Of a DNA stretch of 64,000 nucleotides, positions 21,930 to 36,967 are shown piece after piece. The number at the start of each line of letters is the position of its first letter. Within the stretch, counting starts at the first letter, position 1. Source of the stretch: Dehalococcoidia bacterium (GTDB lineage: Bacteria > Chloroflexota > Dehalococcoidia > Tepidiformales > Tepidiformaceae); assembly GCA_020432045.1 (NCBI GenBank), contig JAGQHB010000075.1:1-64000 (forward strand), read 5' to 3'. The translations under genes were made by a program, and so were the position numbers. The notes under the pieces were generated by a model that had not been told where the DNA came from, made no database searches, and saw nothing but the letters and a program-made list of their open reading frames with translations.

Positions 21930-23492
21930 TCAGTGCCGGAAATGCCGGTGCCCGGTCAACACCATCGCCACCCCGTACTGGTTGCAGCAGTCGATACCGT
22001 CCTGGTCCCGCATGCTTCCACCCGGGTGGATGATCGCTGCCACCCCCGCCTCGCAGGCCCGCTCGACGGCATCGCCCCACGCGAACGGGAAGAATGCGTC
22101 GCTCGCCATCACCGCACCGCGAACCTCGTCGCCAGCCTTCTCAGTGGCAATCTCTGCGCTCTTGACCCGGTTTGGCTGGCCGCTGCCCATCCCCAGCAGT
22201 CGGCAGTCCTTTACCACCGTGATCGCATTGCTCTTCACATGCTTCACGCAGCGCCACGCAAACTTCAGATCTTCCAGCTGTTCCGGGGTTGGGCTCGCGT
22301 TTGTGACCACGTTCAGCTCGACATCCTCTGGCCCCAGGTCATCTGCGTCCTGGACCAGCCACCCACCGCCAACCTGGCGCAGCGAACGTCCACCTTTGGC
22401 GCGCGGCAGCGCTTCAAGGATGCGAAGGTCCTTGGACTTTCCTTTCAGGATCTCCAGGCCCGCGTCCGTATAACCGGGCGCCACGACGATCTCGTAGAAC
22501 ATCCGGGTCGTCCCATCGTTCGGACTCCGGAACTCACGGAGCTCACGAGCCAGCACGTCATCCACTACCCGGTTGAATGCCACGATCCCGCCGAAGGCAC
22601 TCGTCGCATCCCCCTGTACTGCCAGCCGGTACGCTTCCAGCAGGTCCTCACGCGTTGCCACTCCGCACGGGTTCGTGTGCTTCACGACGACGCATGTCGG
22701 GCCCGGGAACTCGTTGACACAGTTCCATGCCGCGTCAGCATCCAGGTAGTTGTTGTAGGACATCTCCTTCCCGTGGTGCTGAACCGCTGTGGCAATGCCA
22801 CCCAGTCCCCGCTCGACCAGCGAGGCATCGACATAAAACGCCGCGGACTGGTGCGGATTCTCGCCGTACCGAAGCCCCTGCGACAACGTCATCGGCACCG
22901 TCAGGCTCGGCGCGGGCTCACCACCATCCCACAGCCACTCCGAGACGGCACTGTCGTAGGCAGCGACGTGTGCGAACGCCTTCCACGCCAGCCGCTTCCG
23001 GTACGTGCTGTCCGCCGTGTTCGTCCGGACGCGCTCCAGCATGTCTCCGTAGCCGGCCGGATCCACCACCACGAGCACGTCGTTATGGTTCTTCGCAGCG
23101 GCCCGAAGCATCGTCGGACCGCCAATGTCGATGTTTTCGATGCCTTCCTCGAACGTCACGCCCGGCTTGGTCACGGTCGCGACGAACGGGTAGAGGTTGC
23201 AGCACACGAGGTCGATTGTCCCGATGCCGTGTTTCGCCAACGCCTCGCGGTGTGACGCCAGGTCTCGCCGCGCAAGGATGCCACCGTGGACCACCGGGTG
23301 CAGCGTCTTCACGCGCCCGTCCAGCATTTCCGGCGAACCCGTAATCTCTTCCACCTGCCGCACCGGGATACCCGCGCTGCTTATCGTGGCGTAAGTCCCG
23401 CCGGTCGATACCAGCTCCCAGCCAAGTTCCACGAGTCCGCGGGCAAACTCAACGATTCCGGTCTTGTCGTAGACCCCTAACAGTGCGCGCAT
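21930..23492 (-). CDS. purH: bifunctional AICAR transformylase/IMP cyclohydrolase
   Basis: PurH carries out the last two steps of IMP synthesis, formylating AICAR with 10-formyl-tetrahydrofolate and closing the ring. The 520 residues cover both domains: an N-terminal MGS-like cyclohydrolase (STGGTYATISSAGIPV, TGSPEMLDGRVKTLHP) and the C-terminal transformylase (RYGENPHQSAAFY, CVVVKHTNPCG, GMGSGQPNR, SDAFFPF). CCGGAGG lies 8 bases before the ATG. It is preceded by a ZTP riboswitch, so its expression responds to the AICAR-triphosphate alarm for folate shortage. Confidence 0.96.
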   Translation of the reverse strand: MRALLGVYDKTGIVEFARGLVELGWELVSTGGTYATISSAGIPVRQVEEITGSPEMLDGRVKTLHPVVHGGILARRDLASHREALAKHGIGTIDLVCCNLYPFVATVTKPGVTFEEGIENIDIGGPTMLRAAAKNHNDVLVVVDPAGYGDMLERVRTNTADSTYRKRLAWKAFAHVAAYDSAVSEWLWDGGEPAPSLTVPMTLSQGLRYGENPHQSAAFYVDASLVERGLGGIATAVQHHGKEMSYNNYLDADAAWNCVNEFPGPTCVVVKHTNPCGVATREDLLEAYRLAVQGDATSAFGGIVAFNRVVDDVLARELREFRSPNDGTTRMFYEIVVAPGYTDAGLEILKGKSKDLRILEALPRAKGGRSLRQVGGGWLVQDADDLGPEDVELNVVTNASPTPEQLEDLKFAWRCVKHVKSNAITVVKDCRLLGMGSGQPNRVKSAEIATEKAGDEVRGAVMASDAFFPFAWGDAVERACEAGVAAIIHPGGSMRDQDGIDCCNQYGVAMVLTGHRHFRH

Positions 23493-23525
23493 GCCAATGC
23501 CTCCGGGTGAGTGGATTCACTCCCC

Positions 23526-23610
23526 GCGGCCCAGGCGTACGGCCGTGTTCATGTGGGAAAGCCGCCGGGCTCCCTCGCGGTCACTCCCGCGTTCGCCAGT
23601 CACCCGACGC
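23526..23610 (-). ncRNA. ZTP riboswitch (pfl motif) upstream of purH
   Basis: Read on the minus strand, the leader contains the two conserved blocks of the ZTP/pfl aptamer: GGGTGACTGGCGAAC, followed by a GCGG hairpin and GAGGGAGCCC, and after a variable linker GCCGTACGCCTGGGC. Order and spacing match the known class. Just downstream is a short hairpin (GAGTG and CACTC around AATC) directly before the CCGGAGG ribosome binding site of purH, with no T-run, which suggests control of translation rather than termination. ZTP binding should turn purH on when 10-formyl-tetrahydrofolate runs low. Confidence 0.93.
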
Positions 23611-23614
23611 GGCG

Positions 23615-36322: not shown

Positions 36323-36385
36323 GCATGCGGCGGCATAGGCGCCGTCTATCGAGCGGTAAATTCGTGATGAATTTCGCAATCGGGG

Positions 36386-36415
36386 TTGACACCCTTCCCC
36401 GCGGTTCGTTACGTT
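36386..36415 (+). promoter_or_regulatory. promoter TTGACA-N18-TACGTT for the riboswitch transcript
   Basis: TTGACA (36386-36391) and TACGTT (36410-36415) are 18 bases apart, a good sigma70-type promoter. The -35 region is embedded in GGGTTGACACCCTT (36384-36397), which recurs exactly upstream of the TasA-like gene at 46386. The 50 bases between this promoter and the aptamer hold a GGGCCC/GGGCCC hairpin (36425-36443). Confidence 0.6.
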
Positions 36416-36464
36416 GCGCCCACCGGGCCCAGTTTTGCGGGCCCATGTGATCCTGTACAAGCAG

Positions 36465-36596
36465 GTGAGCAACTGCAGAATGCGCGGTTCCGCGCAACGG
36501 GGGACCCATTGCATGGGGTGAATTCGGCCTTGCCGATAGGGCGTTCCTTCCGCCCGAACCCGTCAGCTAACCCCGTACGCAGCAGAAGGCCTGGCG
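36465..36596 (+). ncRNA. cyclic di-AMP riboswitch (ydaO/yuaA class)
   Basis: The leader contains the conserved blocks of the ydaO aptamer in order: CGGGGGACCCA (36498-36508), GGGGTGAATTC, a TAGGGCG/CGCCCG paired region, and GAACCCGTCAGCTAACCCCG (36556-36575). These match the known class closely. Boundaries are approximate. About 20 bases later a perfect 7-bp hairpin (GCGTGCC/GGCACGC, 36618-36633) lies between aptamer and ribosome binding site, with no T-run after it. In known cases c-di-AMP turns expression off; how the signal is read here is not clear. Confidence 0.93.
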
Positions 36597-36674
36597 GACA
36601 CCCGTCCGTTACGAGGCGCGTGCCTTGGCACGCATCATCCAGGCTTCGGCCAATTCCGTAGGAGGAATCCCACC

Positions 36675-36893
36675 ATGCCTGCTCTGCAGGAAGCGCCCCC
36701 CAAGTCCTGCCCCAAGTGCCGCGGCACTATGATCGTCGAACGCGACTGGCACGGCACCTACGGTAGCTGCATCATGTGCGGCTACGTTCACGAAGTGCTC
36801 ACCAGCCCCCCCGTTGATCTCGCGGCCGAAGAAGCAGCACTGCCCCAGCGCCAGCGGCGGCGTCAGCCGTCCCACGGCAAGCTTCGACTCTGA
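36675..36893 (+). CDS. small zinc-ribbon protein under a c-di-AMP riboswitch
   Basis: This 72-residue protein has one zinc ribbon with ligands Cys12, Cys15, Cys32 and Cys35 (CPKC and CIMC), then an acidic stretch and a basic tail (QRQRRRQ). AGGAGG stands 9 bases before the ATG. It has no membrane segment. The gene is alone between a strong promoter with riboswitch and a strong terminator, so the cell controls it by c-di-AMP. Usual targets of this riboswitch are wall hydrolases and potassium or osmolyte transporters, so this gene is unusual. Its function is unknown; nucleic-acid or protein binding are possibilities. Confidence 0.8.
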   Translation: MPALQEAPPKSCPKCRGTMIVERDWHGTYGSCIMCGYVHEVLTSPPVDLAAEEAALPQRQRRRQPSHGKLRL

Positions 36894-36924
36894 TTTTCGC
36901 CCATCGGCGTTAGCGGAATCGCAA

Positions 36925-36967
36925 GGCGGGGGTCACGGCTCAAGAGTTCGTGGCCCCCGCCCTTTTT
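36925..36967 (+). terminator. Rho-independent terminator of the zinc-ribbon gene
   Basis: A long stem (GGCGGGGG-CACG with CGTG-CCCCCGCC), an 11-base loop and TTTTT. It closes the riboswitch transcription unit before the methyltransferase gene. Confidence 0.9.

Follow-up and report, generated by a model that had tools for sequence, protein, structure and literature searches.

Riboswitches of the ydaO/yuaA class (RF00379), which respond to c-di-AMP, are generally regarded as turning OFF the genes for transporters, osmolyte functions and wall enzymes, and the c-di-AMP switches described in the open literature are OFF (PMC9337991 among the sources). The aptamer has been crystallised (RNA-Puzzle 12), and pairing of its loop ACUCCUUCGACCC with its 3' end GAAGGAG forms the ligand-bound pseudoknot (PMC5393176). 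The direction of control can be read from the layout of the leader, since an aptamer that overlaps the terminator stem makes an ON switch and one that lies apart from it an OFF switch (PMC9337991). Here we describe an RF00379 leader in front of a gene for a near-invariant 72-aa zinc-ribbon protein in the window, the whole 64,000-nt stretch of DNA that was analysed. As far as open papers show, the pairing of this known riboswitch class with such a protein is so far undescribed; no precedent was found in the open-access literature.

A c-di-AMP riboswitch with a single small gene

The host belongs to the Tepidiformaceae (class Dehalococcoidia, Chloroflexota), as placed by its named relatives. A sequence-only reading of the window had proposed a ydaO-type riboswitch set between a promoter and a strong terminator, with one small four-cysteine zinc-ribbon gene as its only output. 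All of these elements were recovered at the locus (Table 1). The program cmscan matched the aptamer over the full RF00379 model (1-134), above the gathering cut-off of 38 bits, and the 72-aa ORF is the only one in the unit at the window locus. The promoter (36386-36415) was not called by a simple pattern scanner; we regard it as credible because TTGACA-17/18-TAgcgT is retained in nearly all leaders of the family, sister genera included.

Table 1 Features of the riboswitch-controlled unit in the window.
Feature	Position	Strand	Basis or remark
CRP/FNR-type candidate palindrome TTGTGA-N6-TCRCAA (window: TCGTGATGAATTTCGCAA)	36362..36379	.	Beside -35; family conservation
-35 element TTGACA	36386..36391	+	Sequence; conserved among family leaders
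-10 element TACGTT (sister genera: TAgcgT)	36410..36415	+	18-nt spacer; family leaders
c-di-AMP (ydaO/yuaA) riboswitch aptamer, RF00379	36464..36596	+	84.7 bits, E 2.7e-18 (cmscan)
Aptamer pseudoknot loop strand CCTTC	36546..36550	+	Position matches CUCCUUC of the crystallised aptamer; covaries across loci
Aptamer pseudoknot 3' strand GAAGG	36585..36589	+	In sister genera also 5' arm of the leader terminator
Downstream structure, a potential competitor of the pseudoknot, with GAAGGCCTGG pairing CCAGGCTTC around two hairpins	36585..36648	+	MFE fold 36580-36660
Shine-Dalgarno AGGAGG	36660..36665	+	Sequence; 9 nt 5' of ORF
72-aa zinc-ribbon ORF	36675..36893	+	ORF list, conservation, AF2 model
Intrinsic terminator closing the unit	36925..36967 (stem 36925-36962 + U5)	+	-30.7 kcal/mol, z -5.8

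Just 5' of the -35 element, the palindrome recurs with 0-1 mismatch at 31 of 34 family loci but in none of 170 shuffled controls. Outside the family, 32 of 64 loci of the class have a comparable site, with at most two mismatches, near the -10 element or the start (6 of 320 shuffles). The candidate site is conserved and stands beside a promoter, as a TGTGA-N6-TCACA operator does, and a related palindrome in the host genome (C104:62345-62362, L286) adjoins a gene that reads as a Crp/Fnr (cNMP-binding-type) regulator. A CRP/FNR-type factor probably provides a second input at the promoter. Further palindromes (L274, L278, L282, L287) lie near genes that, by eye, resemble those for ATP synthase, ETF and NADH dehydrogenase subunits.

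Elsewhere in the window, a ZMP/ZTP riboswitch (23522-23613, minus strand, 49.4 bits) lies directly 5' of a 520-aa purH-like gene (21930-23492, minus strand); purH is a usual target of that class.

The unit is retained across Dehalococcoidia

The proposal could be doubted if homologs of the protein stood without the riboswitch. This objection fails because RF00379 lies directly 5' of the gene at 87 of the 99 homolog loci examined, with 32/34 in the family and 55/65 elsewhere. Full-length homologs occur in 110 of 294 genomes of the class; RF00379 is carried by 109 of these 110 and by 18 of the 184 genomes that lack the protein (Fisher p ~4e-60, a value that overstates independence as species share ancestry). 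In at least 10 genomes (G070, G114, G140, G142, G152, G171, G222, G264, G293, G303), the sole RF00379 found under the strict filters of the large search is the copy 5' of the zinc-ribbon gene. Judged from the class genomes as a whole, riboswitch and gene form an old module that is kept across much of Dehalococcoidia. The riboswitch is absent, with promoter and gene kept, at L027, L031 and in family f21 (L103-L107, L109).

Upstream of the gene at L052 we observed a decayed-looking c-di-AMP aptamer with flanking motifs kept and the core lost. Family f21 has one or two c-di-AMP riboswitches (L251-L256) away from the zinc-ribbon gene, with no clear gene just downstream of them. In some families, cobalamin riboswitches occur close to the zinc-ribbon gene (L053, L054, L056, L057, L071, L079, L092).

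A near-invariant zinc-ribbon protein

The protein consists of two cysteine pairs (C12-x2-C15 and C32-x2-C35), a helix (46-55) and a near-invariant basic C-terminal tail (59-72; RQRRRQPSHGKLRL). The four cysteines, G17, E22, D24, G36 and the stretch RRRQPSHG do not vary among 73 distinct sequences. Sister genera are separated by 21-34 codon differences but a single residue change, so the ORF is truly protein-coding. The gene is single-copy and occurs in all 22 good genomes of the family, where its main copy shows roughly the conservation of ribosomal S12 (86-99% identity versus 87-98%, using full-length S12 matches from nearly the same set of genomes). At class level the identity of full-length homologs is 48-69%. 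The AF2 model (pLDDT 73.7) places a ribbon at residues 11-42 (strands 18-23, 27-32 and 38-42), followed by the short helix and a loose tail; with two CxxC knuckles in a three-strand ribbon, the modelled protein has the make-up of a zinc ribbon and is predicted to be a zinc protein.

No curated family covers the 72-aa protein, and all Pfam and NCBIfam models stay below their cut-offs. Of the TFIIB/RPB9 zinc-ribbon models, PF08271 scored 22.9 bits against a gathering threshold of 29 and PF02150 scored 19.0 against 25.2. The best fold matches were RNA polymerase III subunit ribbons, at E ~0.1 or worse. Zinc ribbons of the TFIIB, RPB9 and Elf1 type are alike in the ribbon fold with CxxC pairs but differ in that their scores are sub-threshold and the tail of the 72-aa protein is not matched; membership of RPB9, TFIIB or Elf1 was rejected, every match being below cut-off or significance. 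A likeness of the tail to ribosomal L34 (QPS..HGFR) was dropped as too weak (host L34, KRTFQPHNRRRARRHGFRHRM), and a PDB search with the tail gave no match. Because the protein joins a ribbon to a basic tail, our guess is that it binds nucleic acid, RNA polymerase or the ribosome.

In related leaders the pseudoknot and the terminator share one strand

At the corresponding position, the leaders of the class have the pseudoknot pairing of the crystallised aptamer, in many covarying versions (CCTTC/GAAGG, GCCTTTC/GAAAGGC, CCTGATTC/GGATCAGG, ACTGGATC/GATCCAGT). Scored against its own tail, the loop gave a mean of 15.2, versus a mean of 11.9 and a maximum of 12.8 over 500 permutations. Of the 87 leaders, 49 have no recognised terminator and 38 have an intrinsic terminator between aptamer and gene. 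The 5' arm of this terminator is the 3' strand of the pseudoknot (L063, for example: GAAAGGCC...GGCCTTTT). When this strand was blocked, the terminator lost at least 4 kcal/mol in 37 of the 38 leaders (median 14.3), in an energy model that leaves pseudoknots outside and with leaders of one family not independent of each other; the result was the same when the strand was set by position alone. The leaders with this overlap span six families (f1, f34, f53, f59, f68, f70), and a seventh family contributes one doubtful case.

Other terminator-bearing c-di-AMP leaders of the class (n = 18) showed a median loss of 0. A terminator of -12 kcal/mol or lower was still formed with the strand blocked in 15 of these 18 comparators versus 5 of the 38 zinc-ribbon leaders (Fisher p 5e-7, the leaders not being fully independent). 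The comparator terminators mostly stand apart from the aptamer, and several resemble by eye the Dehalobacter OFF design (PMC9337991). The exceptions are L242, with another small zinc ribbon as target, and L266 and L269, whose genes read by eye as membrane glycosyltransferase-like. Both designs occur in one genome in G210 (L063 vs L234), G270 (L050 vs L247) and G262 (L086 vs L240). We also observed that the two glycosyltransferase-like membrane genes have the ON-type terminator overlap.

In 37 of the 38 terminator-bearing leaders an aptamer strand thus lies within the terminator stem, and because of this sharing the published rule (PMC9337991) predicts that they are ON switches. We consider this a strong computational case for ON wiring in the relatives' terminator-bearing leaders.

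The leader in the window differs from these 38 related leaders with clear terminators: the competing helix is present, with no U-tract or clear terminator. It keeps GAAGGCCTGG, and this strand folds with CCAGGCTTC (MFE fold of 36580-36660, -32.3 kcal/mol, z -2.0). Folding of the window leader gave no predicted change in Shine-Dalgarno access. As the U-tract is lost and access is not predicted to change, the ON direction is a prediction for the class that may or may not extend to the window copy. Hiding of the Shine-Dalgarno sequence as a general mechanism was rejected, folding across leaders giving mixed signs.

The c-di-AMP regulon of the host and its class

The host genome encodes a diadenylate cyclase (PF02457, 141 bits) and contains 11 RF00379 matches. 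Near the other copies are genes for an MFS transporter, a SulP transporter, a G5/3D-domain (Rpf-like) protein, PRC-barrel and cytidylate-kinase-like proteins, a 62-aa double-CxxC protein and a KamA-like protein, the last read from sequence and without a Pfam match. Among the c-di-AMP targets named by eye across the class are osmolyte enzymes (OtsA-like and KamA/AblA-like), MFS transporters and a number of small zinc-binding proteins. OtsA-like or KamA/AblA-like genes were seen 3' of the riboswitch at L244, L264, L265, L267 and L270 and at L112, L238 and L243 (by eye).

Small CxxC/CxxC proteins are a recurring target type of c-di-AMP riboswitches in Dehalococcoidia. Further examples were observed at L110, L257, L258, L239, L240, L242, L245, L246, L247, L248 and L268; these proteins, L110 and several others being zinc-ribbon-like, are not full-length homologs of the 72-aa protein.

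The sequence-only reading had also suggested envelope control, on account of upstream sortases and a RodZ-like protein. Two sortases (PF04203), a RodZ-like HTH_25 protein and a methyltransferase do neighbour the gene in the window, but the sortases are not conserved neighbours: in the flanks retrieved, none adjoins the gene at the other 98 homolog loci. With sortase adjacency confined to the window genome and osmolyte and transport genes in the wider regulon, we rejected the envelope context; from the gene content the theme of the regulon looks osmotic rather than envelope-related. Shadow reading frames overwhelmed a clustering of the neighbours over all loci.

Discussion

We favour, at a probability of roughly 0.6, the reading of this one-gene unit as an old module whose c-di-AMP riboswitch controls a zinc-ribbon protein and, in its best-preserved form, turns it ON at high c-di-AMP. 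In that form, found in six families, the ligand-bound pseudoknot and the leader terminator would compete for one strand, so that c-di-AMP binding would hold the pseudoknot, break the terminator and let transcription through. The osmolyte and transporter genes of the regulon would keep the usual OFF wiring. The start of transcription is probably set also by the CRP/FNR-type factor, and the protein made at high c-di-AMP would probably bind RNA polymerase, the ribosome or nucleic acid. In the window copy, which has lost the U-tract, control, if any, would take another route.

The same module could instead work as a normal OFF switch, for example by hiding the ribosome site, with the terminator overlap incidental. 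Known c-di-AMP switches are OFF, two host switches (L111, L115) show by eye an arrangement of pseudoknot strand, anti-SD and SD that fits OFF, and blocking the pseudoknot strand makes the Shine-Dalgarno sequence less accessible in the folds of L096, L098 and L094. The dependence of the terminator on that strand in 37 of 38 leaders across six families speaks against an incidental overlap, as does the prevalence of strand-independent terminators among the comparators (15/18) rather than the zinc-ribbon leaders (5/38), and we consider OFF wiring possible but unlikely.

For the window alone, the riboswitch may be a decaying relic or only weakly active, leaving expression to the promoter and the CRP/FNR-type site. 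The lost U-tract would fit this, as would the relatives described above that have lost the aptamer (L027, L031, f21) or carry a degraded-looking one (L052) while promoter and gene stay; yet the window aptamer scores 84.7 bits with core and pseudoknot intact, and we consider this reading unlikely. That the switch serves an ordinary envelope or osmolyte target, the small ORF being a minor passenger, draws on the nearby sortases and RodZ-like gene. We give this next to no credence: the unit is bounded by a promoter and a terminator of its own, the protein is near-invariant and the sortases are not conserved neighbours, which refutes it as far as sequence can.

If the favoured reading of an ON-wired module is correct, a conserved, regulatory-looking protein as the main output, in some cases the sole one, would give c-di-AMP signalling in Chloroflexota a second tier. 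With the same aptamer wired in opposite ways within one genome, a single signal would divide its genes into an ON set and an OFF set.

Compared with described systems, the unit shares its aptamer class, core motifs and pseudoknot with Bacillus subtilis ydaO/kimA. There the target differs from the small zinc ribbon found here, and the gene is switched OFF through terminator formation, whereas the leaders of the zinc-ribbon relatives share a strand between terminator and pseudoknot and are predicted to be ON. Streptomyces rpfA and Corynebacterium glutamicum nlpC are alike in having an aptamer leader that is also under cAMP-type control; their targets are wall enzymes rather than a zinc-ribbon protein, and the nlpC switch represses. 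In the tandem Na+/c-di-AMP riboswitch of Dehalobacter, which precedes an N-acetyl-beta-lysine precursor gene, the OFF half resembles the comparator leaders of the class, its c-di-AMP aptamer and terminator being separate; in the zinc-ribbon leaders the two overlap, as they do for the Na+ ON aptamer (PMC9337991).
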